Shown piece after piece: positions 1-48,020 of a stretch of 48,020 nt of DNA; the stretch's first letter is position 1, and each line of letters starts with the position of its first letter. The stretch is from a virus. Where the stretch lies: positions 1 through 48,020 of IMG/VR virus record IMGVR_UViG_3300036853_000256. One strand, given 5' to 3'. Under the pieces are notes generated by a model, which searched no databases, was not told the origin of the DNA, and was given only the letters and a program-made list of their open reading frames with translations. Both the position numbers and the translations under genes were made by a program.

Positions 1-11
1 GGGTATGGCAT
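1..11 (-). CDS. First codons of a head-tail adaptor-like gene, cut by the left end
   Basis: On the minus strand an ATG at 11 begins M-P-Y and runs off the left end. A purine-rich ACGGAG lies just upstream. The 24 bases at this end closely match 46723-46746, the start of the head-tail adaptor gene (MPYP...). This end therefore probably holds the start of a homologous adaptor that directly follows the accessory virion gene, without the glycosyltransferase cassette seen at the right end. Only three codons are visible. Confidence 0.4.
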
Positions 12-27
12 TGCCGTCGCTCCGTCC

Positions 28-1341
28 TCAGTACTCGTATCCGGCGATGAGCAGGTCGACGGTGGGCGCGTTGGTGACGTAGACGGAGTTCACGGTCGCG
101 CCGATTTGCAGCGTCCCGTCACCGAGGATCTCCAGACCCTCCGGCACCTCGATCGGAACAACCTGCTGCGCGCCGCCGGTCGCCGGAGTGGCCGCCCGGG
201 CGGACAGCACGATCGGCGTGCTCGCGGTGGTGACAGCTCCGGCCGTGTTGATCCGCACCGAGATGACCGACGTGGCCGCCGTGCCGGTCGCGTTGCCCAC
301 CTGGCTCGCCAGGATCGACGTGATCCGGAACCGCTTGCCCGAGGTCACGACGAAGCTCGCCGCGCTGGTCGTCGCCCCCGTCCCGGCTGAGCGGGTCAGC
401 GTCAGAGCCGTCTCCACGCCGGTAGCGCCCACAGCGAGACCCGTCCCGGACAGGCACACCGCCGTACGGCCGCTGTCTCTCAGATCCTGGGTTGCCAGAC
501 CGAACGCGCCCTGCCGGCCCACCGGCGTCACGTTGGCCTTGCGCCACGGGAACGACGAGTCGCTGATGAACTGGTTGTTGACTGACGAGTCACCGACGCC
601 GAAAAACGACGACTGGTATACGGCCGCCGGGGAGACCGTCGAGGCGCCGTTGACGACGAGCGCCAGGAACGGCAGGTTGCTGGTGTTCGGGTTCGGGTAG
701 GCGATGGAGCCCACCGCGATGTTGTCGATCTCGAAGTAGGCGCGGGAGGTCTTGAAGTAGATCTCGTAGCGGTGCAAGTTCGCGTCCAGCGGCTGCACCG
801 TCGACAACGAGATGGCCTGAGTCCTCACACCACCGGACCACACCACCCCGGAAAGAACACCGGTCGTGTCGATCCACTCGAAGCCGACGCCATCGGTGAT
901 CGGGGCGGCCACCGTCGGGGAACCGGCGGCGTTACCGACACCGAGCCAACGGTAGGCGCCCGTCTTCAGGGTCGGATCCACCTTGACCAGACCCAGGATC
1001 ACGTTGAACATGTTGCCGAGCAAGGGGAACGTAGCCTTGGACGTCAGCGAGGAAACCGCCAGCGCGGTCGTGCCCTGGTTCATCGTCAGCGTACCGGCGG
1101 TCGATGTCGGCGCCGTACCACCCGTGGTCCACCGGTCAACAGTGTCCAACGCCCCGTCGAAAGTCTCCGCGATCAGCGGCGACGCGTCCGACGCGGTCTT
1201 CAGATATCCGTCAGGCCGGAACAGGGCCACATTGTCCGACGCGCCATCGCCTACAACCACCACCGGGCGGTGCTCACCGAGGACAGTGGTCCGGGTATCG
1301 CGCGCCTTCGGGTCGTTCTCGTTGACGAAACTATCGGGCAT
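28..1341 (-). CDS. Large accessory virion protein (head fibre or decoration candidate)
   Basis: 437 residues, ATG start with AGGAG upstream. The protein is rich in Thr, Ser, Ala, Gly and Val, with alternating beta-type stretches and no membrane segment. Residues 55-245 resemble a concanavalin/LamG-like sandwich (Phe-Glu-Trp, Tyr-Glu-Ile-Tyr-Phe-Lys and Phe-Glu-Ile-Asp patterns). The C-terminal 130 residues form a second beta-rich domain ending in a Tyr-Glu-Tyr. It lies downstream of the major capsid gene in the late operon, where accessory head proteins often sit. The C-terminus is duplicated at the right end of the window (47831-48020) with about ten base differences. Function is inferred from position and composition only; an adsorption role is possible. 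Confidence 0.6.
   Translation of the reverse strand: MPDSFVNENDPKARDTRTTVLGEHRPVVVVGDGASDNVALFRPDGYLKTASDASPLIAETFDGALDTVDRWTTGGTAPTSTAGTLTMNQGTTALAVSSLTSKATFPLLGNMFNVILGLVKVDPTLKTGAYRWLGVGNAAGSPTVAAPITDGVGFEWIDTTGVLSGVVWSGGVRTQAISLSTVQPLDANLHRYEIYFKTSRAYFEIDNIAVGSIAYPNPNTSNLPFLALVVNGASTVSPAAVYQSSFFGVGDSSVNNQFISDSSFPWRKANVTPVGRQGAFGLATQDLRDSGRTAVCLSGTGLAVGATGVETALTLTRSAGTGATTSAASFVVTSGKRFRITSILASQVGNATGTAATSVISVRINTAGAVTTASTPIVLSARAATPATGGAQQVVPIEVPEGLEILGDGTLQIGATVNSVYVTNAPTVDLLIAGYEY
92..217. repeat. Left copy of 126-bp terminal identity
   Basis: These bases are identical to 47895-48020, the last 126 bases of the window. Both copies lie in the same reading frame of the same C-terminal coding region, at a constant offset of 47803. 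To the left of position 92 the two copies differ at roughly one base in six, so the identity stops sharply. This is the pattern of an assembly closing on a shared k-mer rather than a packaged terminal repeat. Confidence 0.85.
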
Positions 1342-1365: not shown

Positions 1366-1686
1366 TTACGCCCTCGACTGCAAGAAGATCTTCGAGGTCG
1401 TGGCGTTGCTTACGGTCTGCACCGTTCGCCACCGAATGAACGGCGACACCACCGTGATCGGGGTAAGACTTGTCGGCGCCGCATACGCGGCGGTCAGGTC
1501 CGTGTCCAGCGTCGAGCCGTCGAAACTGCCCTCGAGCGAATGCACCGACGTGCCGCCCGCGAAAAGGAACCACGGCAGCACGATCGTGAACCCGGTCGTA
1601 TCCAGCCACGGAGATACCAGCGGTGACGCGGCGGTCGTCAGCGGCGTCAGGTACTGCCAGATCTTGTAGCCGGGCAGAGTCGCCAT
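1366..1686 (-). CDS. Small virion-associated protein, unknown
   Basis: 106 residues beginning MATLPGYKIWQYL. The start overlaps the stop of the upstream 65-residue gene as TGATG, which fixes it at 1686. The protein is beta-rich (alternating Thr/Val/Ser, Trp-Leu-Asp-Thr-Thr-Gly, Phe-Ile-Arg-Trp-Arg-Thr-Val) with a short aromatic stretch but no convincing membrane helix. It sits between the capsid gene and the large accessory virion protein, so a minor head or decoration role is inferred. Family not recognised. Confidence 0.65.
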   Translation of the reverse strand: MATLPGYKIWQYLTPLTTAASPLVSPWLDTTGFTIVLPWFLFAGGTSVHSLEGSFDGSTLDTDLTAAYAAPTSLTPITVVSPFIRWRTVQTVSNATTSKIFLQSRA

Positions 1687-1883
1687 CAGGACGCCTTCGG
1701 CCTGCCCAGGCCGCCACGCTTCGCGGGCGGCGGCTCGGGCACCTCGTCCAGGGCGAGGTCCTCGAACTGCAGCGGCGCGCCCAGCGCGTGCGGGTGATTG
1801 TCGGGCAGCACCTTGCCCTTGGGCACGAACGTCTCGCCCCCCTCGCCGTCGGCGATGAAAAACGACTCGATGGCCTGCTTCAT
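1686..1883 (-). CDS. Small acidic protein downstream of capsid
   Basis: 65 residues, MKQAIESFFIADGEGG..., acidic with a proline-rich and basic C-terminus (EPPPAKRGG). It is the first gene after the capsid gene and the hairpin at 1931-1960, and is joined to the next gene by a TGATG overlap. No recognised domain. The position suggests a small head accessory protein, but nothing in the sequence proves it. Confidence 0.6.
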   Translation of the reverse strand: MKQAIESFFIADGEGGETFVPKGKVLPDNHPHALGAPLQFEDLALDEVPEPPPAKRGGLGRPKAS

Positions 1884-1930
1884 GCCGCGGCCTTCCTCTC
1901 AATGAGAAGTGATGCGATTCCTGGAATGGA

Positions 1931-1960
1931 AATGCCCGACACGCAGAAGTGTCGGGCATT
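1931..1960 (-). terminator. Stem-loop after the major capsid gene
   Basis: A perfect 12-bp inverted repeat (AATGCCCGACAC, six-base loop, GTGTCGGGCATT) lies 17 bases beyond the capsid stop codon, followed on the minus strand by a short TTTCC run. Such hairpins commonly end or attenuate transcripts after phage capsid genes, raising capsid expression relative to downstream genes. The weak T-run suggests partial termination. Confidence 0.75.
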
Positions 1961-1977: not shown

Positions 1978-3345
1978 TCAGGCTCCCTTGAGCACCCGGA
2001 AGGCGTTCGGCGTGGACACTCCGGCACCCACGCGCCAGAACATATACCATCCTGCTTGCCCATTGGGAAGAATGCCGCCCGTGCCCTTGACCATCGGCTC
2101 GTACATGAGGCTAACGCCCACGCGGTCGACGATGTAGTAGTTGCTGAAGTCGCCGAACACGGCCATCAGCGAACCGACGGCCGGAGCGCCGCCGAACATG
2201 GTGGTCGACTCGTAGATCGGCGCGCCGAGCAGCGTCTCCGGCTGGCCCTTGCCGAGGTTCGTCCAGAAGCTCGCACCACCGGCAGTGTCGAACTGCCGGG
2301 TGCGGTTGATGTAGGCCACGTTCATCGCCCACGCCACCGACGGGGAAGTACGGAAGCGGGCCGGCAGCGCGGCCTGGATGCCGTACACGTCGGCCAAGGC
2401 GTACACCAGCGTGGTGGCCGTGGTGTACACGGTCGTCGCGCCGGTGATGATGCCGGTCGGGGTGGTCGTGCCCGGGCCGGTCGCGAACGCCGCCTCCTCG
2501 AGACGGTCCTTCGCGTCGCCGAGCAGCACCGGCAGCTGGTTGGCGAAGTCGGTGTCGGCCAGCACCTCGTACGAGCCGAACACCCACGCCGCGGCCTTCT
2601 GCGGGGTGATCTGGATGTTGCCGACCGTCGGCGTGTTGTCGGTGACGATCGTCGCCTCAGCGAGCCACGCCGCGTTGACGCCGGCGGAGGTGACGCCGTT
2701 CCAGGTGTTCGAGGTGGTCTGCTTGATGTTGGAGATCCGCCGCCACGGGTTCGCCGAGGCGGAGTTGGTCAGCACGATCGTCGGGTCCAGGACGAACGGG
2801 AGCATGTAGCCGCCGTTCGCGAGGGTCAGTGACAGCGCCGCACGCGAGGCCTGGCCCTCCGGGTCCTCGACGTACGCCTGGAACGCCTTCTGGTACTCGT
2901 CGGAGCCGGTCAGCAGCAGGTGCCGGGCGATGCCCGGGTCCTGCTGGACCTTGACCGTCGCGGCCTCGGCGAAGTCGCTGTTCATCTGGCCGACCCGGTT
3001 GCAGCGCTCGATGGCGGTCTGCGCGCGGGCGATCATGTCAGCGCGGTGGATCATCTTCGAGCGGACCGCGTCCAGGTCCTGGAACGGGTCCATGTCGCGG
3101 CTGACGACCAGGTCGGGCGTGGTCTTCTCGACCTTCCGCTCGTCCTTGGCCGCGTAACGGACGGCGTCGAGGCGTTCCATCCGGGCGGCGAGCGGCTTGC
3201 GCTGCTCCTCCAGCTCGTCCCACTCGGTGAGCAGGGTATCGGTGTAGGCCTCGTCCTCGTCGGTGCGGTCTTCCTTCTTCTCGATCTCAAGCAGTTCGGC
3301 TCGGACGGCCGTCTGCCGGTCGAGGATGTCCTGCAGCTTCATCAT
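1978..3345 (-). CDS. Major capsid protein, HK97 fold
   Basis: 455 residues, the shell subunit of the icosahedral head. Residues 1-75 are a charged coiled coil (ELLEIEKKEDRTDEDE, EWDELEEQ), the usual N-terminal delta/scaffold domain cleaved during maturation. The rest is a typical HK97-type core: AALSLTLANGGYMLPF, a WNGVTSAGVNAAWLAE E-loop-like stretch, an ITPQKAAAWVFGSYEVL spine region, and a C-terminal segment with FGDFSNYYIVDR. Start at 3345 with GAGAGG upstream; it overlaps the protease gene by 59 bases. A hairpin terminator follows. Assignment is firm from motif pattern and from the protease and portal upstream. Confidence 0.95.
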   Translation of the reverse strand: MMKLQDILDRQTAVRAELLEIEKKEDRTDEDEAYTDTLLTEWDELEEQRKPLAARMERLDAVRYAAKDERKVEKTTPDLVVSRDMDPFQDLDAVRSKMIHRADMIARAQTAIERCNRVGQMNSDFAEAATVKVQQDPGIARHLLLTGSDEYQKAFQAYVEDPEGQASRAALSLTLANGGYMLPFVLDPTIVLTNSASANPWRRISNIKQTTSNTWNGVTSAGVNAAWLAEATIVTDNTPTVGNIQITPQKAAAWVFGSYEVLADTDFANQLPVLLGDAKDRLEEAAFATGPGTTTPTGIITGATTVYTTATTLVYALADVYGIQAALPARFRTSPSVAWAMNVAYINRTRQFDTAGGASFWTNLGKGQPETLLGAPIYESTTMFGGAPAVGSLMAVFGDFSNYYIVDRVGVSLMYEPMVKGTGGILPNGQAGWYMFWRVGAGVSTPNAFRVLKGA

Positions 3346-4417: not shown

Positions 4418-5800
4418 CTACGTGCCCGCAGGCGCGGGAATGCTGGGCTTGTTGCCGTTGACCGCGGGCGGGGGCTGTCCGCCGGACTGCTGCAGCTGCA
4501 CGGACACCCAGTTCGGGTCTTCCTCGAGCAGCGTCATGTCCTGGGCGACCACCGCGGCGATCGCCGAGGCGCGGGTGAAACCGCCGGTCGCCAGCGACAC
4601 GATGGTCGAGCCCTGCTGCTGCTGGATGTTCGCCGCGTCGGACTGGTCCTCGCGCAGGAACGGGATGTCGCGGGTATCGACCACCAGCTGCGCGCCAGGC
4701 GGGGGCGGCACGAGCGTGGCCAGCGAGCCCGCCACATTGCGCCACAGCGTCGACAGGGTGCCCTCGGCGAACTGGCGGCGCGCGGCCCCGAAGTTGCCCG
4801 CGTTCAGGCTCGAGCCCTGCAGCCCTTCCGACAGTCCGACGATGACCGGGTGCACGCCGGCAGCCGCGGCGATCCGGGTCTCACCGGCGCCCTGGGTTAC
4901 CTTGAAGTCGAGCTGACGCATGTCCGCGCCGACCGTGGTCACGTCGGCGCCGCCGCCGAGGTACAGCGTCTTGTAGGCGTTCTGCGCGCCCTGGTGGGCG
5001 TTGTTCATCTTCTTCATGAACCGCTCGAACGTCTCTTCCTTCATGTCCTTGAAGGAGACGACCGTCTGCAGGGTGGCGCCGTTCTGGAAGAACGCCAGCT
5101 TGTGCAGGCTCGCTGCGCTGTCGGCTTCGAGCTCACGCACGATCGGGGAGATCCACGACATGCCGCGGTAGTGGGCGAGCGGGTCCGGGGTCGGCGCGAA
5201 GTGCGCGACCTCGTCCGGGAGCAGGTAGATCGGGTCCTTGCCGGACAGCGCCCCGCCGGGCCAATAGCCGTAGCCGAGCAGCTCGGCGTCGAGGTCGTCG
5301 GGCAGGATGTCCGGGTCGTCCATCGAGCCCATGACGATCGTCACCCAGTCCGGCCGCATCCTGCGCAGGTGGCCGTTGCGTTCCGTCCAGAACGCGTTGC
5401 CGGCCAGGTCCGCGTCCTGCAGCAGCCGGGTCAGCAGATCCTGGGTGGTGCCGTTCGGCCACGGCCGTTCGAGCAACCCCAGGGACTGATTGCCGAACAT
5501 GTCGCCCGGGCGGCCGTTGCGCAGCTGCTGATACTGGAACCGGCCCTCGGAGAAGACTGACAGCCGGGCCCGCATGCAGGCGAAGACGATGCCGTTGCGC
5601 TTGTACGCGCCCTCCACCATCCCGGTGAAGTTGGTCTCCATCCGCTCCGTGCGTCCGCCGGAGAAACCGCCCGGGACGCCGGAGTAGGTGTTGCCGCCGT
5701 ACGACCACGTGAAGTCGAGCGGGTCCTGCGCGGCGAAGTCGACACCCTCATAACGTCGGATCGAAGACGCGCTTCGGCGGATCGACTGGAGGAGGTTCAA
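4418..5800 (-). CDS. Portal protein
   Basis: 460 residues from a TTG start at 5800 (LNLLQSIRRSASSIRRYEG), preceded by a strong GGGAGGGA. The open frame extends 25 codons further upstream, but that part is Pro/Ser/Cys-rich, lacks such a ribosome site and reads into the membrane-protein gene. Portal-type features are a conserved start of the stem region (NGIVFACMRARLSVFSE), the FWTERNG and GYGYW strands, a DEVAHFAP motif, a long helical stretch around residues 235-290, and QGAGETRIAAAAGVHPVIVGLSEGLQG. As the dodecameric ring at one head vertex it docks the terminase and later the connectors. Overlaps the upstream membrane gene by 53 bases. Confidence 0.92.
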   Translation of the reverse strand: MNLLQSIRRSASSIRRYEGVDFAAQDPLDFTWSYGGNTYSGVPGGFSGGRTERMETNFTGMVEGAYKRNGIVFACMRARLSVFSEGRFQYQQLRNGRPGDMFGNQSLGLLERPWPNGTTQDLLTRLLQDADLAGNAFWTERNGHLRRMRPDWVTIVMGSMDDPDILPDDLDAELLGYGYWPGGALSGKDPIYLLPDEVAHFAPTPDPLAHYRGMSWISPIVRELEADSAASLHKLAFFQNGATLQTVVSFKDMKEETFERFMKKMNNAHQGAQNAYKTLYLGGGADVTTVGADMRQLDFKVTQGAGETRIAAAAGVHPVIVGLSEGLQGSSLNAGNFGAARRQFAEGTLSTLWRNVAGSLATLVPPPPGAQLVVDTRDIPFLREDQSDAANIQQQQGSTIVSLATGGFTRASAIAAVVAQDMTLLEEDPNWVSVQLQQSGGQPPPAVNGNKPSIPAPAGT

Positions 5801-5969
5801 CCGGAGTCCCTCCCTCGACGTCGTAGAGCAGCAGGAAGGACAGGGCGGTGATAGCGCCGGCGACGACCAGGGCAAGCCCGAGGCCGCGGGTCAGGTAGAT
5901 GCCGGCGACGAAAGCGACCAGGCCGGCGACATAGCCGAAGCGGGCGATGGTGGCGCGGCTCGCGCGCAT
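5748..5969 (-). CDS. Small two-helix membrane protein between terminase and portal
   Basis: 73 residues with two hydrophobic helices (about residues 10-28 and 32-48) joined by a tight TRGLG turn, then a short acidic proline-rich tail. The ATG overlaps the upstream stop codon and the 3' end overlaps the portal gene by 53 bases. Its place in the packaging/head operon is conserved in style with other actinophages, but the role is unknown; an inner-membrane assembly or exclusion function is possible. Confidence 0.65.
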   Translation of the reverse strand: MRASRATIARFGYVAGLVAFVAGIYLTRGLGLALVVAGAITALSFLLLYDVEGGTPVEPPPVDPPKRVFDPTL

Positions 5970-6220: not shown

Positions 6221-6531
6221 CAGCGGATCCGTTCGGCCGGAAGCTGGAGCGATATTGATGGCGGCACATAGCCGTGCGCCATCTCCGCCGGCATATAGCC
6301 AGACGCTGGTCCGTAAGGCAGTGCAATCTCGCGAGCGAACCGGACCGTCGGCTTGTCGACGAGCTCAAGCTGGCCGTTGAGCCACGTCACGTCGTCGTCG
6401 GTGAGCCGCTGGTCGAGCGCCACTCTTGGCGGTCGCCAAGACGCGGCGAAGCCTGCGCCCCATGCCAGCATCAGCCGACCGCCGCGCTTCCGACGAGCTT
6501 GGGTGCCTTCAACATCAGACTCGTCTCCCAT
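6220..6531 (-). CDS. Hypothetical protein after terminase large subunit
   Basis: 103 residues starting MGDESDVEGTQARRKRGG; the ATG overlaps the TerL stop as TGATG. A basic N-terminus is followed by a mixed domain containing LTDDDVTWLNGQLELVDKPTV. An internal Met at residue 21 is an alternative start. The upstream overlap favours 6531. Not recognised; location suggests a packaging-operon accessory protein. Confidence 0.65.
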   Translation of the reverse strand: MGDESDVEGTQARRKRGGRLMLAWGAGFAASWRPPRVALDQRLTDDDVTWLNGQLELVDKPTVRFAREIALPYGPASGYMPAEMAHGYVPPSISLQLPAERIR

Positions 6532-8135
6532 CAGGCGAAATACGCCCACGGTTCGATGTCGGGCTCCTCGGGCACGTCGTTGAGCACCCACACGCCCATG
6601 CACAAGGTGATCGCCGCGTCGATGTGCCGCTTGCTCTTGCCCTTCGACAGGGTGAAGCCGCGGTCCTGCTCCCGCTTCACCGCCGCCTTCACGTGCGCGC
6701 CGAGCTCCATGTCGCCGTCGTGCACGATGCGGCCCTCGACGATCAGGTCGAACGCCAGCCCGCACGCCGGGGCCATGCGCTGCGGCGACTGGTCGAACTG
6801 GATCGTCAGGATGCCCTCGTCCTCGAGCATCCGGCCGGGCAGCTCGAAGAACCGCGGGTCGTAGACGACGCCCCGGAACGCGGTCCCGCGAGCCAGCGAC
6901 CGGATGTAGGTGAACACGTCGAGGTGATCGATCGGTCCCGACTCGGCCCGCCAGATCCGCGAGGTGATCGCGTACCGGTCGTCCGGCAGGTGCTCGATGA
7001 GGCTGACCGCCACGGAGTCGTGCTTGAGCGCCATGTCGACAACGACCACGAACGGGTTGTCCGGGCTGGAGGTCCATTCGCCCTCGCAGGCGCCCCACGC
7101 GCCCGGGTGGTCGGCCAGCCAGGATTCCTCGGCGACGTCCACCCAGCGGTTGGCGTAGTAGCGCAGCCACTCGTGACGCTGCACGCCCGGCTTGCCCCAC
7201 TCGTTGACCCGGTCCCGCACCGACCACAGCACACCGGCCGCCCCGGACGCCGCCTGCACGGCGACCTCCCGGTCGGCGGGCACGTCGTAGTTCAGATCGT
7301 CGGGTGCCTCATGCCAATCGAACAGGAACCGCGGGGCGAGCGACGGATCCCGTTCGGCCTTCTTGCCGAGCTTGTACATCGCGCCGAGCAGGGACTGGTC
7401 CACGTCGAAACCCGCCGTCGACAGGTTGAGCCGGCGACCGGCGCCGCGGGGGGTGCGCCGCTTCTTCGTGGACTTGCCGATGACGGTGTGCACGCGGGCC
7501 TTGCGCGAGCCTTCCTCGCCCCACTCGTGCAGCTCGTCGGCGACGAACAGCGACGGCAGGCCGCCCTCGTTCGTACCGGCGACCGCAGCGACCCGGTAGA
7601 CCCGGCCCGGACGCCCGTCCGCGAACTTGATCTCGGTGTCGTAGACCTCGAAGTAGCCGCACAGCGGCGACTCCTTCACGGCCTGGTCCCGGCCGCCGCA
7701 CATCGTGGCGAGCGCCGTGAACAACAGATTGGCCTGCTCGAACGAGGCCGCGCCGATCGGGATGTTCGGCGACGGCACAGCGATCTGATCAGGCCCCGCG
7801 AACTCCACCAGCGCCAGCGCGGCGATGAACTGAGTCTTCCCGTCGCCGGTCGCCGCGCCGCGCAGGCCCTCGTCGTAATGCCACTCCTGGCAGCGGGGGC
7901 AGTACTCGAACCAGCGCCATGCGAACGCCTGCTGATCCGGGCGCAGGACGATCAGCTTGCCGTACCAGTCGCCCTCGCCGCAGATGCAGTTGTCCTGAAT
8001 CCAGTCGACGGCGATGGCGCCGTGCGACGGCCACAGCTCGCCGGCGGCCGGCTTCCACCCGCAGGCCTGGCAGCCGGGGTCAGGCTTGGGCTTCGATGAT
8101 CCGTGGGTCGGCGTGGGGGCCGTTGCGGTCGACAT
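6531..8135 (-). CDS. terL: Terminase large subunit
   Basis: 534 residues from the ATG at 8135, with GGGGGTGG upstream; a GTG at 8144 is the alternative. It is the packaging motor ATPase and headful or cos nuclease. Visible motifs are a Walker A-type GAATGDGKTQF near residue 97, Walker B SLFVADELHEW near 208, and RNaseH-like nuclease acidic positions VVVVDMALKHDS, YDPRFFELP and HIDAAI in the C-terminal half. The first 90 residues carry three Cys pairs (CQACG, CICG, CPRC), an uncommon zinc-binding-like N-terminus. It overlaps the small terminase gene by 56 bases. Confidence 0.93.
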   Translation of the reverse strand: MSTATAPTPTHGSSKPKPDPGCQACGWKPAAGELWPSHGAIAVDWIQDNCICGEGDWYGKLIVLRPDQQAFAWRWFEYCPRCQEWHYDEGLRGAATGDGKTQFIAALALVEFAGPDQIAVPSPNIPIGAASFEQANLLFTALATMCGGRDQAVKESPLCGYFEVYDTEIKFADGRPGRVYRVAAVAGTNEGGLPSLFVADELHEWGEEGSRKARVHTVIGKSTKKRRTPRGAGRRLNLSTAGFDVDQSLLGAMYKLGKKAERDPSLAPRFLFDWHEAPDDLNYDVPADREVAVQAASGAAGVLWSVRDRVNEWGKPGVQRHEWLRYYANRWVDVAEESWLADHPGAWGACEGEWTSSPDNPFVVVVDMALKHDSVAVSLIEHLPDDRYAITSRIWRAESGPIDHLDVFTYIRSLARGTAFRGVVYDPRFFELPGRMLEDEGILTIQFDQSPQRMAPACGLAFDLIVEGRIVHDGDMELGAHVKAAVKREQDRGFTLSKGKSKRHIDAAITLCMGVWVLNDVPEEPDIEPWAYFA

Positions 8136-8583
8136 CGCCGCCACCCCCGTATCGCGAGTTCATCTCGGCCAGGGACTTCTGCTCGGCGATCACGGCGATA
8201 CCCAGTGCGGACCGATGCAGCGGGCCGACGCCCATCTGCCGCTCGCACCGCTCGGCGGCATCGAGCGCGCGGTAGGCGATCTTGTAGAGCGGGTTCTCCA
8301 CCTGCTGACCCGTCGAGCCCGGCACGATCGGCTGCTTGTCCGCCTCGGCGATGGTGCGCATGTACCGGTCGTACTCGGTGATCCAGCGGGTCAGGACACC
8401 ACGGTCGACGGGCGTCTGAACAGTGGAAACGGCGTCCGACCAGTACGCGTCCCACAGTGCGAGCGAATCCGGCGACAGGCCGTCAGGTGGGTCGAGGCGG
8501 CCACCGGCAACAGCGGCAAGCAGGGCGCGGCGGCCGTTACGTGGGTTGACCGCCGTGCCTGCCGGTTTCTTCGTCGCAGGCAC
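8080..8583 (-). CDS. terS: Terminase small subunit, P27 family-like
   Basis: 167 residues from a GTG start with GGAGGTACGCC upstream. It is mostly helical: SLALWDAYWSDAVSTVQTPVDRGVLTRW, then a long helix through the YDRYMRTIAEADKQ region and a VENPLYKIAYRALDAAERCERQMGVGP segment, the pattern of P27-type small terminases that recognise phage DNA and recruit the large subunit. The acidic GGGGDVDRNGP tail overlaps the TerL start. Confidence 0.85.
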   Translation of the reverse strand: MPATKKPAGTAVNPRNGRRALLAAVAGGRLDPPDGLSPDSLALWDAYWSDAVSTVQTPVDRGVLTRWITEYDRYMRTIAEADKQPIVPGSTGQQVENPLYKIAYRALDAAERCERQMGVGPLHRSALGIAVIAEQKSLAEMNSRYGGGGDVDRNGPHADPRIIEAQA

Positions 8584-8595
8584 GGCGTACCTCCG

Positions 8596-9435
8596 CTATC
8601 CGATCAAGAGCAGTTGAGCCGGGCCGCGATTGCCTCGCCGCGTGTTGCACTGCAGGTGGGCGAGGGCCAGATTCTCGGGGGCGTCGAACCCTCCTGCACT
8701 GATGGGTATCAGGTGATCGAAGCTAGGTGACATGCGATGACCTGCTCGGAGGTTCCGATTCACCCGACGTCGGCACAGGTGGCAACGCCACGAGTCGCGA
8801 TCGCCCAGTTCGGTAATCGTCATGCGGCGGCCGCGCACCCTGCTGCCTCGTCGGACCGCGTTCTTCTGACGGAATCGGGCGCGCTGCCGGATCGCCCGGC
8901 AACCCGCGCACCGTTTCGCGCTGGACAGTGCCCCGTCGAAGGAGGCACCGCAATCCACACAGATGCAGGTCTGGCGCTGGTGGCAGCCCGGCGAACAGAA
9001 CAGCTGTTCACGGCGGCGAGCGTTGAACTCAAGCCCGCACGTGGCGCACGGCCGCCGTCCGACGACACCTCGGCACGGGCCGCACCGCTGTCCGCTGCCC
9101 TTTGCCGTGAAGGTCGCCGTGCAGACGATGCAGGTCCGCTCGGTCTCCGCCACGAGGCAGCGTGTCATGCGCAGGGTGTCCAGCATCCTGCTTGGAGCGC
9201 CGCCCGGCAGATGGCTGAGCTTGCACTTGCGGCTGCAATACTTCGCCTTCGAGTGCATGGCGGTGAACACCACACCACAGACGGTGCACGGAATATCGCG
9301 CGTGACCTGCGGTTTCTCCGGGCGCTGTTCTCGGCGGCACGGTTGGCAGCGTCGCAATCCTGCGGGCAAGGACTGGGCGGTGCCAGGCAGCACGCGGCCG
9401 CACCCGGCGCATGGAGCGTCATAGATTCTGGACAT
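8596..9435 (-). CDS. Multi-zinc-knuckle HNH endonuclease
   Basis: 279 residues from the ATG at 9435 with GGGAGAAA upstream. Residues 1-200 contain a run of CxxC pairs (CAGCG, CQPC, CTVCG, CSRKC, CIVC, CGPC, CATCG, CSPGC, CVDCG, CAGC), enough for about five zinc ribbons. The C-terminal 80 residues are an HNH domain: SWRCHLCRRRVN, FDHLIPISAGG, LALAHLQCNTRRG. HNH proteins next to terminases are needed for DNA cleavage at cos sites in several HK97-like phages, so a packaging role is likely; a free-standing homing nuclease is the alternative. Confidence 0.8.
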   Translation of the reverse strand: MSRIYDAPCAGCGRVLPGTAQSLPAGLRRCQPCRREQRPEKPQVTRDIPCTVCGVVFTAMHSKAKYCSRKCKLSHLPGGAPSRMLDTLRMTRCLVAETERTCIVCTATFTAKGSGQRCGPCRGVVGRRPCATCGLEFNARRREQLFCSPGCHQRQTCICVDCGASFDGALSSAKRCAGCRAIRQRARFRQKNAVRRGSRVRGRRMTITELGDRDSWRCHLCRRRVNRNLRAGHRMSPSFDHLIPISAGGFDAPENLALAHLQCNTRRGNRGPAQLLLIG

Positions 9436-9729
9436 GCGAATTTCTCCCGGAAAGACGGAGGCCCCGTGCCGGGAGACACGGGGCCTTCTTACCGACGGGA
9501 TCAACGTCGGTCGATGTGGGTCACGAAGCGTAACCTCACGTTTGGTAGTGGCCCAAAGGGCCGTAACTTAGAGTTACCTAAAAACGGGAGTCCTAGTCGA
9601 CACGGATCTTGGCGAGGGGCCCCGGGGTCCCTCTCTTGATCTTGATCTTCCGTGCCGACCCCTCCCCCCTACCCTCTGTGACCTGCGCCGTCAGGCCCAA
9701 TGTCACGTTGAGTAACATGTAACAGAGAG
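9436..9729. other. 294-bp non-coding region with three dyads, possible packaging or promoter region
   Basis: No convincing gene. Besides the hairpin at 9460-9490 it holds three closely spaced dyads: GGCCC-AAA-GGGCC at 9550-9562, GTAACT-TAG-AGTTAC at 9563-9577, and GAGGGGCC-CCGG-GGTCCCTC at 9614-9633. A doubled TTGATC repeat follows (9637-9648). It lies between two HNH genes and just upstream of the terminase genes, where cos or pac sites are usually found. No cohesive-end sequence can be proven from sequence alone. Confidence 0.4.
9460..9490 (+). terminator. Stem-loop with TTCTT tail upstream of the terminase operon
   Basis: A perfect 9-bp stem (GGCCCCGTG / CACGGGGCC, eight-base loop) is followed on the plus strand by TTCTT. 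No plus-strand gene ends nearby, so on the minus strand it may instead act as an attenuator in the leader of the HNH/terminase genes. Confidence 0.45.
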
Positions 9730-14697: not shown

Positions 14698-15525
14698 TCA
14701 GGCGGCCCCTTTCTGCGCGTCGAATAGTTCGAGCTGAACAATTCGCTCGCGCGCAGGTGTACCGATCAGATCGAGGACGCCTTGACGCCATTGCAGGGCG
14801 TAGGTGAGGCAGTTGGCGCAGTTCCTGTGGCCCACGCAGCCGCTCAGCGGGGCGCTGCGCCGGCCGTCGTAGGACCAGGCCATCGAATCGGCGGTGTTCA
14901 GGTGCACGCCGTACCGCTCCAGACCCTGCTTCTTCACGCCGAAGCCGTGGATCGGCAGGCCGTCGTCTAGCTGGCGCAGGACCTGCATGATCTCGCCGAT
15001 CTCGTCGGTGGCCTGCCGCCGACACACGGAGCCCACGCCGACGACGGGGTAGTTCCGGATGTCAATCCCGGCGGCGTCGTAGAGGTCCCAGCAGCGCAGG
15101 TAGTCGTCGCGGTCCCAGCCCTGCAGAACCGGCATGAACGGGCTCTCCGACTCGTCGCCCCACAGGTCCTGCAGCTGCACGAAGTTGGCGACGGTGCGGC
15201 GCTGGTGCTCGGCGATGGTGAGGCCGGTCTTGGCGAGCATGAACGGCTCGCACATCCAGTCCTGCGGCGTTGCCCAGCCGAGCTCGCCGATCTCCTCGTC
15301 GTAGCGGCGTACCGCGGCGACGTACTCCTGCGGGGTGGTACGCCACTCGCCGTAGAGGCTGAGTTCGGAGAAGCCGCCGGAGTCAAGTGCCCAGTGCACG
15401 CGGGCGCGTGGCAGCGTCTTGCGGCCGGCGAGCCTGCGGTGGGAGACGAACAGGCACAGGTCGGTGGGCAGGCCGTCGGCTTCGAGCCAGTTCGGCATGT
15501 GGGTGCCGAGGTAGAAGCACTCCAT
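14698..15525 (-). CDS. DpdA/TGT-like 7-deazaguanine base-exchange protein
   Basis: 275 residues with the pattern of tRNA-guanine transglycosylase-like barrels in phages: ALDSGGF with Asp48, EEIGELGWATPQDWMCEP (Asp89), VLQGWDRDDYLRC, VVGVGSV, PIHGFGVKK and TADSMAWS (Asp213). A Cys/His cluster (Cys230, His233, Cys236, Cys239) matches the expected zinc site. Phage members of this family (DpdA) replace guanine in DNA with 7-deazaguanines and protect against restriction. No preQ0 synthesis gene is visible here, so the host would have to supply the base. It could also act on RNA. Start at 15525 by TGATG overlap; a terminator follows. Confidence 0.75.
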   Translation of the reverse strand: MECFYLGTHMPNWLEADGLPTDLCLFVSHRRLAGRKTLPRARVHWALDSGGFSELSLYGEWRTTPQEYVAAVRRYDEEIGELGWATPQDWMCEPFMLAKTGLTIAEHQRRTVANFVQLQDLWGDESESPFMPVLQGWDRDDYLRCWDLYDAAGIDIRNYPVVGVGSVCRRQATDEIGEIMQVLRQLDDGLPIHGFGVKKQGLERYGVHLNTADSMAWSYDGRRSAPLSGCVGHRNCANCLTYALQWRQGVLDLIGTPARERIVQLELFDAQKGAA

Positions 15526-18125: not shown

Positions 18126-18430
18126 CGCGGTCCTCCCAGCAGATCAGCCACGTACCGCAGCGCGTCAGGGACCGCCCGATACGGCCTGCCCCGCTTCTCG
18201 CAGACCGCGAAGCCCTCGCCGACGAGCGGGCGTAGATGCCAGCTCAGGCCAGCCTGGAAAAGGCTCAGGTCGTTCATCAACTGGACCGGCCGGACCCCGT
18301 CCGGGGACGCCAGAAGCATCGACAGGATCTGTATCCGCGTCGGGTGGGCCAGGGTCTGCATCACCCGGGCGAAGTTGTCGGCCTCGGCGTAGGTCACGGG
18401 ACGGTCGTGCGGGTTGGTGAGCTGGCGCAT
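18122..18430 (-). CDS. ArsR-type winged-helix regulator
   Basis: 102 residues: FARVMQTLAHPTRIQILSMLLASPDGVRPVQLMNDLSLFQAGLSWHLRPLVGEGFAVCEKRGRPYRAV is a standard ArsR/SmtB-like winged helix with recognition helix and beta-wing. There is no metal-binding Cys pair, so it probably acts as a simple repressor. It is co-transcribed with RecT and overlaps its stop. Confidence 0.8.
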   Translation of the reverse strand: MRQLTNPHDRPVTYAEADNFARVMQTLAHPTRIQILSMLLASPDGVRPVQLMNDLSLFQAGLSWHLRPLVGEGFAVCEKRGRPYRAVPDALRYVADLLGGPR

Positions 18431-19323
18431 CAGCTATCGCCGCCCGCCGTGCGTTCCTTGCGCTCCCGCAGCGCGGCGATGACCCGATCGGCCTCGTCGC
18501 GGGTGAGGTCGTTGCTGGACTCGAGCGGCCCGTCGGCTTCGTCGAGGCCGAGGATCTGGCCTGTCAGCCACAGCCGCTTGCTGCGGTCCTCCTCCGACTT
18601 GCTGTAGCCCAGCTCGGTCCACAGCGCGAACATCTCGCTGCGCTGCTTGGCGGTGACCATCTCGACGTCGGGGGCCTGCTCGACCGCGGGCGGCTCGTCG
18701 AGGTCGGCGGCGGTGAGCCGGCGCACGACCGGCGTCGGGGCGAGCGCGCGCTGGTCCTCGATCTCCTCGGCCGCGTACGGCATCCCCATCACGGCGTCGC
18801 TAGCTATCCAGCGGCACACCTCCGCCGTGGCGCGGGCAACCAGCATCGCGGCGGGCTGAAGGAGCCACTGGTTCTTACCGGGCTCCTTGGCCTTATCGAG
18901 CAGACCCAGCTTCCTGGCGCGCTCGATCGTCCAAACCGATTCCTGCCACTCCTCGTCCCCGCGCCGCAGCCCGGCCACGACTGCCTCGGTCTCGCTAGAG
19001 CGGACGATGCGGACCTTGTGGCCCGCGCCCTGGACGACCGCCCGCAGCGTGATGGCCTTCGGCGCGGGCACGCCCTGGATCGAATCGAAAGCCCGAAGCG
19101 ACGCCATCGGGTCGAAGCCGAGCTCCGCGCCGGCCAGGATCGCCGCCGTAGCCTCGGCGGGTTTGCCGCGGTAGGCGGCGGGGGCGAAGGAGGTGGAGCA
19201 GATGTCGGCGGCGATCTCGGAGACGGCGCGGGCCTGCTCGACCCAGCGGGCGAGGCGATCCATGCTGTTGCTGCCGTAGGTCTCTACGGCAGCCTGCTGG
19301 TTGCGGATCTCGATGTCGGTCAT
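18430..19323 (-). CDS. recT: RecT-family single-strand annealing protein
   Basis: 297 residues, start fixed by TGATG at 19323. The RecT core spans residues 20-200: AADICSTSFAPAAYRGKPAEATAAILAGAELGFDPMASLRAFDSIQGVPAPKAITLRAVVQGAGHKVRIV and PAAMLVARATAEVCRWIASDAVMGMPYAAEEIED. The C-terminal 90 residues are acidic and linker-like with a final helical region. It anneals single strands produced by the adjacent exonuclease during phage recombination and replication. Confidence 0.92.
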   Translation of the reverse strand: MTDIEIRNQQAAVETYGSNSMDRLARWVEQARAVSEIAADICSTSFAPAAYRGKPAEATAAILAGAELGFDPMASLRAFDSIQGVPAPKAITLRAVVQGAGHKVRIVRSSETEAVVAGLRRGDEEWQESVWTIERARKLGLLDKAKEPGKNQWLLQPAAMLVARATAEVCRWIASDAVMGMPYAAEEIEDQRALAPTPVVRRLTAADLDEPPAVEQAPDVEMVTAKQRSEMFALWTELGYSKSEEDRSKRLWLTGQILGLDEADGPLESSNDLTRDEADRVIAALRERKERTAGGDS

Positions 19324-20168
19324 CAGAACTCCTCGGTCCTCACCCAGCCGGGGAGGTCTATGTCGGTGATCTGGTCCTCGGGGTAGCCCGGCCAGATGCC
19401 GGACTCTCGGCAGTCGCGGTAGATCTCGAGCGCCTGGCTGACCTGCTGGTCGCCCCAGGTCATGGCCCGTTCGGTGAGCTGGTTGACGTGCACCAGGTAC
19501 GGCGGCGTCTTCTCGACGGCGATGTGCACGAACCACGGATCCGGCCCATCCGGCCGCAGGGCACGGAAGCCGCGCAGGTAGAACGGGGCCTGGATCGCGT
19601 ACCCGTAGTTGTGCGCCGCCTTGGACAGAGCGTCCGGCGCGGCACTCTCGGTGGTCTTCAGGTCGACGATCCCGGCCCAGCGCAGCCAATCCGCCTTGGC
19701 CCGGCACATGACGCCGGTTGCCGGGTCGCGCCAGATCAGCGCCCGCTCGGGCTTGCCGGAGTCGAGCAGCTTCTTCGCCAGCCGGTGCGCCTTGACCGCC
19801 TTCTCCATGGCAAACGCGGCGGCGTAGTCGGACGGACGCAGCGGCACGTATCCCTTCGCGCGCAGCCTCGCGACCTCGGCCTTGTCGGCGTCGGTCCGCC
19901 ACGCCTCCGGGTCCTTGCCGCTGCCCACGACCTCCACAGGCGTCGGCCCGGCGCCGAGCACCAGCGTGTGCACGGCGTGGCCGAGGTCGAACTCGCGCCG
20001 GACCTCCAAGGTGCCGTTGTCGATGGCGTGGCGGAAGCGGGCCGGGCCGCCGGGCTTCAGCAGCTCCCGCGCGCCGGTGCTGGACAGTGTGGCGCTGGCG
20101 AGCGCCGGCCCGAAGTACTCGTCGTCGGTGAGCTCGTAGACGCCGGGCTGGAGGGCGATGGTGGTCAC
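19323..20168 (-). CDS. RecE-like exonuclease (PD-(D/E)XK fold)
   Basis: 281 residues. It follows the arrangement of phage recombination nucleases paired with RecT: LSSTGARELLKPGGPARFRH at the N-terminus, a catalytic core with RALIWRDPATGVMCRAKADWLRWAGIVDLKTTESA (acidic and Lys catalytic residues), and YAIQAPFYLRGFRAL. It degrades one strand of duplex DNA to give tails for RecT. Translationally coupled to RecT by a TGATG junction. Confidence 0.88.
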   Translation of the reverse strand: MTTIALQPGVYELTDDEYFGPALASATLSSTGARELLKPGGPARFRHAIDNGTLEVRREFDLGHAVHTLVLGAGPTPVEVVGSGKDPEAWRTDADKAEVARLRAKGYVPLRPSDYAAAFAMEKAVKAHRLAKKLLDSGKPERALIWRDPATGVMCRAKADWLRWAGIVDLKTTESAAPDALSKAAHNYGYAIQAPFYLRGFRALRPDGPDPWFVHIAVEKTPPYLVHVNQLTERAMTWGDQQVSQALEIYRDCRESGIWPGYPEDQITDIDLPGWVRTEEF

Positions 20169-20395
20169 GAAGCCTCACCGCCTGCGGCCGCCTCGGCGTG
20201 CCTTCGGTAGTCGCTGATGACTCTGGCCTTCTCGACCACGTCGGCGGGGACGAGCTTCAGGGCCACGCATGGGCACCAGTCGTAGGTCTTCGTCCCTTCA
20301 AACGCTCCCGACTCGAACAGCAGCCGAGGATGAAGCTCCTGTTGCTCACGCAGCTGGCTGACGAGGTCGTAGACCCAGTTCGGCAGATCAGCCAT
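20165..20395 (-). CDS. Small protein coupled to the exonuclease
   Basis: 76 residues, MADLPNWVYDLVSQLREQQELHP..., with YDWCPCVALKLVP and a helical, Ala-rich C-terminus. Overlaps the exonuclease start by four bases. Resembles short actinophage early proteins of unknown role. Confidence 0.6.
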   Translation of the reverse strand: MADLPNWVYDLVSQLREQQELHPRLLFESGAFEGTKTYDWCPCVALKLVPADVVEKARVISDYRRHAEAAAGGEAS

Positions 20396-46187: not shown

Positions 46188-46733
46188 TCAGGCGGCGAGC
46201 GGGCCGGCGTACCAGTCGGCCAGGGCTGCAGCGGAGTCGGACAGCGTCATGCCGCCGGTGCGGGGCGCGCTTCTCACCGAGTAGTCGTCGATCGACTCGG
46301 ACACGACGGTGATGTCCGGCGACGAATACGCGGCGCCCGCGGACTCCAGCACCGCGCCGGCAACATCGTCGGTGACCGTGGCGTAGCCGTAGGTGTAATC
46401 GACCTCGACCAGGTCGGGCGGGAACGCCGACCACCGGCCCCAGCCGATCCGCCGGTACAGCGACTGCTCGATGACCGTGTAGTCGGTACCGGCCGTCAGG
46501 ACCACGCCCTTGACCCGCACCTGCACGACGGCCACCAGCGGGGCGAACGGCATGATGATCTCCGCGCAGCCGGTGCCCGGCTTGCTGTACGTCGTCGACA
46601 GCGTGCCGCCCCAGTGGGACTTCGCCCGCGCCTCGAACAAGGCCGTGACCTTGGCGAGGGCCAGCGTCGCCGTCGCCGTGTCGACGTCCTGCTTCAGGAA
46701 CGAGGCCAGATCAGAGGGCGTCGGGTATGGCAT
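46188..46733 (-). CDS. Head-tail adaptor (connector), gp6-like
   Basis: 181 residues from ATG 46733 with GGAGG upstream. MPYPTPSDLASFLKQDVDTATATLALAKVTALFEARAKS (helical), then TDYTVIEQSLYRRIGWGRWSAFPPDLVEVDYTYGYATV, DVAGAVLESAGAAY, SIDDYSVRSAPRTGGMTLSDSAAALADWY is the standard plan of HK97 gp6-like adaptors that bind the portal from below. The glycosyltransferase gene overlaps its 5' end by 23 bases. Confidence 0.85.
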   Translation of the reverse strand: MPYPTPSDLASFLKQDVDTATATLALAKVTALFEARAKSHWGGTLSTTYSKPGTGCAEIIMPFAPLVAVVQVRVKGVVLTAGTDYTVIEQSLYRRIGWGRWSAFPPDLVEVDYTYGYATVTDDVAGAVLESAGAAYSSPDITVVSESIDDYSVRSAPRTGGMTLSDSAAALADWYAGPLAA

Positions 46734-47376
46734 TGCCGCCGCCTCCGATCACCGTCGACTTGACGTGCCCGGCCCGGATTCCGGTATGTACGTGCACGGG
46801 GATCCGGGCGACGCCCGCGCGCAGGCAGAACGCCATGTCCTCGCCGATGCGGCGGCCGCCGAACTCGGTCTCCTTGAACCAGGGCCACGGAGTGTTCCTG
46901 GACCGGTTCCGGCTGGCGATGTTCTCCAGCGCCGTGCGGTGCATCAGCAGGCACGCGGCACCGGTAGCCGCGACCGGCACGGCCGCGTCGTCCGGCCACT
47001 GCTGATACCAGGCGAACGCCGGACCCTCGACCAGCTCGTACATGGTCGGCCGGACCTGCCCGTCGTCGGTCTCCTGGTAGCACAGGGCACCCATGATTGG
47101 CCGGGTCCGGCTGTCCGCGGCGGCGACCAGCCGGTCCAGGGTGTCCGCTGCGAACACCATGTCCGTGTCGAGCATCCACAGCCACGGAGCCCTCTGCTCC
47201 GCCAGGAAACGCTCGACGATCAGATTCCGGGCCGCGGCGATGTTCGGCCCCGACCGCACCGCGAGCACCTCGTCCAGATGGGTCGCGCCGCGTCGCAGCA
47301 CACCCAGCAGCGACGTCATGAACTCCGCGCGGACCGTGCCGGGATGCACGTACCCGGCGACCGCGGCCGGGCTCAC
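46711..47376 (-). CDS. GT-A glycosyltransferase
   Basis: 221 residues from a GTG at 47376 with GTGA overlap. GPNIAAARNLIVERFLAEQRAPWLWMLDTDMVFAADTLDRLVAA contains the DTD metal-binding motif of GT-A fold enzymes, followed by GALCYQETDDGQVRPTMYEL and a C-terminal GEDMAFCLRAG with the expected acidic residue, then HVHTGIRAGHVK. It probably glycosylates virion proteins or a host surface polymer. It interrupts the head-to-adaptor gene order and seems absent in the sequence at the left end. Confidence 0.82.
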   Translation of the reverse strand: MSPAAVAGYVHPGTVRAEFMTSLLGVLRRGATHLDEVLAVRSGPNIAAARNLIVERFLAEQRAPWLWMLDTDMVFAADTLDRLVAAADSRTRPIMGALCYQETDDGQVRPTMYELVEGPAFAWYQQWPDDAAVPVAATGAACLLMHRTALENIASRNRSRNTPWPWFKETEFGGRRIGEDMAFCLRAGVARIPVHVHTGIRAGHVKSTVIGGGGNAIPDAL

Positions 47377-47567
47377 CCGTTGAGGAACGGGCCCGCGACC
47401 GGATGCCCCTCGGCGCTGTCGGTGGTGCCGACCTCGGGGATCGGCACGTCCAGGTCGACCATCGGCTGCACGTCCGGGATGTACATCTGACGGCCGTAGT
47501 CAAGCGGCGTCATGCCGTCGGTCGGCACGTTGCGGGCTGGTTCGGCATTCGAGGTCGGCTGGCTCAC
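47373..47567 (-). CDS. Small protein of the glycosyltransferase cassette
   Basis: 64 residues from GTG 47567 (GTGA junction): VSQPTSNAEPARNVPTDGMTPLDYGRQMYIPDVQPMVDLDVPIPEVGTTDSAEGHPVAGPFLNG. Acidic and Pro-rich, probably disordered; could be a carrier or scaffold, or an acceptor peptide for the transferase, which is speculation. Confidence 0.55.
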   Translation of the reverse strand: MSQPTSNAEPARNVPTDGMTPLDYGRQMYIPDVQPMVDLDVPIPEVGTTDSAEGHPVAGPFLNG

Positions 47568-47821
47568 GTGTCCGTCGCTCCCATCGGCTCGTGACCGGAG
47601 GCGTCCATCGCCGCGTCCGGATCCATCGGTTCGTTGCCGGCGCACGACACCCCATCCGGCACCTCCATCGGCTGGCCGATGGTCGAGCCCTGGTCATAGG
47701 TGTCGCCCTGCCGGTTCTGCATGTAGGCGAACGCCTGCTCCACGGACATCGGCACCGTCGGCGCCATCCGCGCGTTCACCGCCTCGACGCTGTCCGGCGT
47801 CGTCTGGATCCCGTACTCCAT
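47564..47821 (-). CDS. Small Met/Asp-rich protein of the glycosyltransferase cassette
   Basis: 85 residues, MEYGIQTTPDSVEAVNARMAPTVPMSVEQAFAYMQNRQGDTYDQGSTIG... with repeated EPM phrases (QPMEVP, EPMDPDAAMD, EPMGATDT). GAGGACG precedes the ATG. Not recognised. Tight junctions on the downstream side. Confidence 0.6.
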   Translation of the reverse strand: MEYGIQTTPDSVEAVNARMAPTVPMSVEQAFAYMQNRQGDTYDQGSTIGQPMEVPDGVSCAGNEPMDPDAAMDASGHEPMGATDT

Positions 47822-47830
47822 ATCGCGTCC

Positions 47831-48020
47831 TCAGTACTCGTATCCAACGATGAGTAGGTCCACGGTCGGGGCATTGGTGACGTAGACGCTGTTGACGGTC
47901 GCGCCGATTTGCAGCGTCCCGTCACCGAGGATCTCCAGACCCTCCGGCACCTCGATCGGAACAACCTGCTGCGCGCCGCCGGTCGCCGGAGTGGCCGCCC
48001 GGGCGGACAGCACGATCGGC
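47831..48020 (-). CDS. C-terminal end of the accessory virion protein, second sequence version
   Basis: 63 codons in frame with a stop at 47831, cut by the right end. The protein is the same as the C-terminus of the gene at 28-1341 except for a single Ala-to-Val change near the end (LLIVGYEY instead of LLIAGYEY); most of the base differences are silent. If the window is circular, this and 218-1341 are one gene of full length. Confidence 0.8.
   Translation of the reverse strand, partial: PIVLSARAATPATGGAQQVVPIEVPEGLEILGDGTLQIGATVNSVYVTNAPTVDLLIVGYEY
47895..48020. repeat. Right copy of 126-bp terminal identity
   Basis: Identical to 92-217 and ending exactly at the window edge. Base 47894 is the first difference (g against c at 91). 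Joining at this overlap gives a circle of 47803 bp in which the accessory virion gene is followed by the glycosyltransferase cassette. Confidence 0.85.

Follow-up and report, generated by a model that had tools for sequence, protein, structure and literature searches.

The 48,020-bp window analysed here is one whole IMG/VR record, not an excerpt of a longer sequence, and its two ends raise a question: why does the sequence at its right edge recur near its left edge, behind 91 further bases? We conclude that this end repeat is very probably the assembly seam of a circularly mapping tailed-phage genome, to which a short branch from a sister strain has been attached. The feature itself is an ordinary assembly seam, and the biology behind it is a difference in gene content within a variable slot of the head module.

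Within the window, the longest suffix with a second occurrence measures exactly 126 bp, bases 47895–48020 being identical to bases 92–217, as an earlier reading made from the letters alone (the sequence-only reading) had noted. The 64 bp that precede the two copies (28–91 and 47831–47894) differ at 10 of 64 sites, in keeping with the mostly silent divergence of about one base in six described previously: eight codons are changed, seven of them silently, and one carries an A to V change. Bases 1–16 match 46723–46738 without a mismatch (E = 7.7e-4 for this 16-mer in a BLASTN-short search against the window alone), and this site is precisely the adaptor start codon and its RBS side. Over bases 1–24, which had been assigned to the adaptor start at 46723–46746, 20 of 24 bases match, and allowing a one-base gap extends the homology of the left end to the upstream side of the adaptor as far as base 23 or 24.

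Read on the minus strand, the left end (version A) passes from the 437-aa gene through its stop and a 16-nt gap with an RBS into the adaptor, which begins ATG CCA TAC, whereas at the right end (version B) the stop of the same gene is followed by an 85-aa gene. In version A the 437-aa gene abuts the adaptor, whereas in version B a 1.08-kb segment comprising the 85-aa gene, a 64-aa gene and a glycosyltransferase-like gene lies between the two (Table 1). Because seven of the eight changed codons are silent, version A has the character of a coding strain variant. The mixed population proposed earlier thus gains support from bases 1–91, which are coding, mostly silently diverged and joined differently, and we infer that versions A and B coexisted in one sample. 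Version A may be without the segment or may carry it elsewhere, as its 91 bases cannot distinguish the two, and the arrangements would differ through loss in A or gain in B.

Bases 1–91 could also be an assembly or PCR chimera, in which case there would be no virus with the 437-aa gene beside the adaptor. The stretch is short and was found nowhere else, either by a 21-mer match of version A in IMG/VR or by a pattern scan there for relatives of the 437-aa protein. However, it differs from version B on the adaptor-start side as well as at the gene end, so it was not built from main-version sequence; the predominance of silent codon changes also argues against a chimera, as does a junction that retains the stop codon, the 16-nt gap and the RBS. 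We therefore regard a chimera as very unlikely, and version A would be a genuine strain variant, with the adaptor coming immediately after the 437-aa gene.

Joining base 48020 to base 218 yields a proposed closed circle of 47,803 bp and an intact 437-aa gene (1,314 nt, with a single terminal stop). The head module then reads portal, protease, major capsid, 197-aa gene, 437-aa gene, seam, 85-aa gene, 64-aa gene, glycosyltransferase and head–tail adaptor. Across the closed seam this order agrees with that of related phages (capsid, 197-aa gene, segment, adaptor), and it is the order of L003, the closest related phage record found, except for the added 437-aa gene. Both the closure and the uninterrupted 437-residue gene had been predicted by the sequence-only reading, and both hold. 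'Circular' refers here to the genome map and does not in itself prove a circular molecule. Despite lacking an end-to-end match, the record is probably complete.

The same pair of diverged 3′ ends and adaptor starts would likewise arise from a tandem duplication within one genome, with the 437-aa gene and the adaptor start each present twice and the contig ending in the repeat. However, in the 48-kb window the adaptor and the complete 437-aa gene each occur just once, none of the related loci examined has two adaptors or two 437-aa-type genes, and closure of the map reproduces the gene order of the relatives. A duplication is thus highly improbable, and the seam of a circular map remains our preferred reading.

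Table 1 Features of the window at its ends and in the head and terminase region
Feature	Coordinates	Strand	Evidence
Version A: first codons of the adaptor (1–11; start codon complement 9–11) and 16-nt gap with RBS (12–27), up to the stop of the 437-aa gene	1–27	−	1–16 identical to 46723–46738
Version A: about the last 21 codons of the 437-aa gene, including the stop	28–91	−	Diverged from 47831–47894 (10/64 sites differ)
Seam, first copy (126 bp)	92–217	−	Identical to 47895–48020; regenerated by the K = 127 walk
437-aa gene, probable virion accessory protein	28–1341	−	Residues 22–284 resemble a 340-aa protein of L007
197-aa gene, upstream of the 437-aa gene	1366–1959	−	65% homologue in L003
Major capsid protein	1978–3345	−	Pfam PF05065, E = 1.4e-36; 98% to L003
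Portal protein	4418–5875	−	Pfam PF04860, E = 1.6e-34
Terminase large subunit; beside it small subunit (8080–8583) and HNH endonuclease (8596–9504)	6531–8144	−	PHROG 9, E = 3e-54; PHROG 83; PHROG 338
Head–tail adaptor, 181 aa	46188–46733	−	PHROG 442, E = 1.5e-20
Glycosyltransferase-like gene, 221 aa, 3′ end overlapping the adaptor start	46711–47376	−	PHROG 34859, E = 7e-16; 95% homologue in L003
64-aa gene, also in the segment, whose GTG start overlaps the stop of the preceding gene	47373–47567	−	Homologues in L003 (85%) and L015 (76%), over 46 residues
85-aa gene, in the segment that separates the 437-aa gene from the adaptor	47564–47821	−	85% homologue in L003
Version B: 3′ end of the 437-aa gene (47831–47894 diverged; 47895–48020 second copy of the seam)	47831–48020	−	Sequence comparison

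Identical sequence near both ends of a record is also what one would expect if a linear genome were packaged with a true direct terminal repeat. Here, however, the two physical ends do not carry the same sequence: the left copy does not lie at the left end, as 91 bases precede it that have no counterpart at the edge of the right end. Moreover, the 126 bp fall inside a coding gene, and one flank is diverged by 16%; on the ground of this one-sided divergence, a packaged repeat had already been judged unlikely. The length also equals k − 1, and the 127/126 signature recurs in other records, including circular ssDNA phages. Packaging sites usually lie beside the terminase genes. In the window, the terminase and HNH genes are about 6.5–9.5 kb away, and the record ends inside a head gene, whereas a packaging site would be expected near the terminase genes (6531–8583). 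A packaged repeat is accordingly improbable in the extreme, and the length of the match points again to an assembly seam.

To place this length in context, we examined the terminal 3 kb on both sides of 20 related IMG/VR records and found an exact 127-bp end-to-end repeat in four of them; record G039 is a mirror image of the window, with 126 identical bases from its base 1 followed by one variant base. Gokushoviruses are circular ssDNA phages without a packaged repeat, and 78 whole gokushovirus contigs, gathered with a gokushovirus profile, therefore served as a control (an earlier microvirus control with a pequenovirus capsid query returned only that virus's own record). Three of the 78 have 127-bp end repeats, three have a 126-bp match with a SNP at its edge (L143, L153 and L169), and three have a 127-bp match behind a variant (L170, L193 and L194). 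Another k is represented by three contigs with 99-bp repeats and three with 98-bp (99 − 1) variant forms (L144, L149 and L195). The closest parallel to the window is L193, in which a 412-base head differing at 42 of 412 sites (10%) is followed by 127 identical bases. Double-length gokushovirus records also occur: L194:1–8070 and L198:1–8665 consist of two diverged genome versions head to tail, 84–91% alike, and L185:1–8249 shows partial matches of 73–85%. In these records the assembler has probably joined two strains.

We combined the proposed 47,803-bp circle with window bases 1–400 in a de Bruijn graph; a walk through it at K = 127 returned the window letter for letter, but walks at K = 99, 121, 126, 128 or 141 did not. 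As the input includes the window itself, the walk tests whether the model is consistent and which K fits; it does not test whether the circle exists. The earlier attribution of the 126-base identity to a k = 127 assembly graph agrees with this walk, in which only one of the six K values tried regenerates the window, and with the recurrence of 127 and 126 elsewhere. The window itself is probably the product of a short-read assembler run with k = 127. End overlaps equal maxK in metaSPAdes and MEGAHIT and maxK − 1 in IDBA_UD, and within-population variation was among the simulated causes of fragmentation (PMC10914622). One counterpoint to the seam is that closed metaSPAdes circles overlap by k = 127, whereas the window shows 126 (k − 1). 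The shortfall of one base is also present in other variant-ended contigs, where the match is often k − 1 rather than k. The k-mer end overlaps of circular short-read contigs are the basis of COBRA (PMC10914622), and the window likewise has an end identity of k-mer length. Unlike an overlap of the COBRA type (PMC10914622), its left end bears 91 bases of a diverged strain, which makes the overlap internal on the left, so that simple end-to-end repeat tests miss it and would overlook other contigs of this kind.

We propose the following course of assembly. The short-read graph would consist of one loop, version B, and a short incoming branch, version A, from a co-occurring strain, whose point of entry into the loop would lie within the 3′ end of the 437-aa gene. 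An assembler that starts on the branch would walk the whole loop and stop on returning to the join. The left edge would then keep 91 bases of version A, and the right edge an identity of k-mer size (126 = k − 1 for k = 127). For users of the record, this means that bases 1–91 come from a different strain and that 48020/218 is the point of closure of the map (47,803 bp). If the two versions did coexist, one sample contained two gene arrangements of the head genes of this phage.

Comparison with relatives locates this difference in the slot between the capsid and adaptor genes. In L003 (IMGVR_UViG_3300046740_000426), the capsid, adaptor and glycosyltransferase are 98%, 90% and 95% identical to those of the window, respectively, and the DNA is 90% identical and colinear with the window over the stretch that begins with the 85-aa gene and includes the whole adaptor. 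L003 is without the 437-aa gene, however: its 197-aa gene leads straight into the 85-aa gene, and the 64-aa gene, the glycosyltransferase and the adaptor come next. L015 (IMGVR 3300012207_000004) and L016 (IMGVR 3300012359_000156), with capsids 80–82% identical, have homologues of the 197-aa protein and the adaptor in the same slot; unlike in the window, other small genes precede the adaptor, and the glycosyltransferase was not found in either record (L016 is a 5.7-kb fragment). The glycosyltransferase is present in 14 of 24 related records, adjoining the adaptor in L003, L004, L007 and L009 and lying further upstream in L005, L006, L008 and L011. The 437-aa protein has a single relative among 44 records, a 340-aa protein of L007 (about 34–35% by tblastn over residues 22–284) encoded beyond the adaptor, on its downstream side; it is absent from the other 43.

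As the content of segment, 437-aa gene and glycosyltransferase differs among relatives, the capsid–adaptor slot is variable and can be flagged as a site of content variation between close relatives. Within it, the glycosyltransferase is common and the 437-aa gene rare. The two arrangements described by the sequence-only reading stand, with the 437-aa gene directly before the adaptor in version A and the segment between them in version B. That reading took the cassette to be the optional part, but among relatives it is the 437-aa gene that is rare and the cassette that is common. It is possible, though doubtful, that the glycosyltransferase segment is a gain-and-loss module among co-occurring strains, so that virions with and without a phage-made sugar decoration circulate together.

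Two further differences were observed among these relatives. The 197-aa gene (window 1366–1959, minus strand) is 65% identical to its counterpart at L003:4302–4907, between the capsid at 98% and the segment at 85–95%, and this step marks a putative mosaic boundary in the head module. L005 (4575–5135) and L008 (625–1185) contain an extra gene between the glycosyltransferase and the adaptor, whose product, LVAAMVTALRPDYVVETGTHIGNTA, looks by eye like a class I methyltransferase.

The 437-aa protein has no match in Pfam or PHROGs, and neither a pattern scan of IMG/VR nor the phage records yielded relatives; a structure prediction with its one relative had a mean pLDDT of 28 and was not used. Judged by its position, it probably serves the virion as an appendage or decoration protein. 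PHROGs identifies the 221-aa protein as a glycosyltransferase, a search of phage records for it returned none, and its location among the head genes points to a role in decorating a virion protein. An actinobacterium is the probable host, given the G+C content of the window (69%) and a capsid that, among the matches listed, is closest to those of Mycobacterium and Gordonia phages (about 34–36%); a capsid profile search of bacterial and archaeal genomes for prophages and a host returned no match.

Outside the head module, a 582-aa frame (18430–20178, minus strand) has a RecT-like annealing domain at residues 301–530 only. Residues 1–300 were without a match; they may represent a second, fused domain, or the start may have been called too early. 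The window also carries a queuine tRNA-ribosyltransferase-like gene (14698–15525, minus strand; PHROG 1279, E = 3e-112); genes of this type are often linked to 7-deazaguanine modification of phage DNA.
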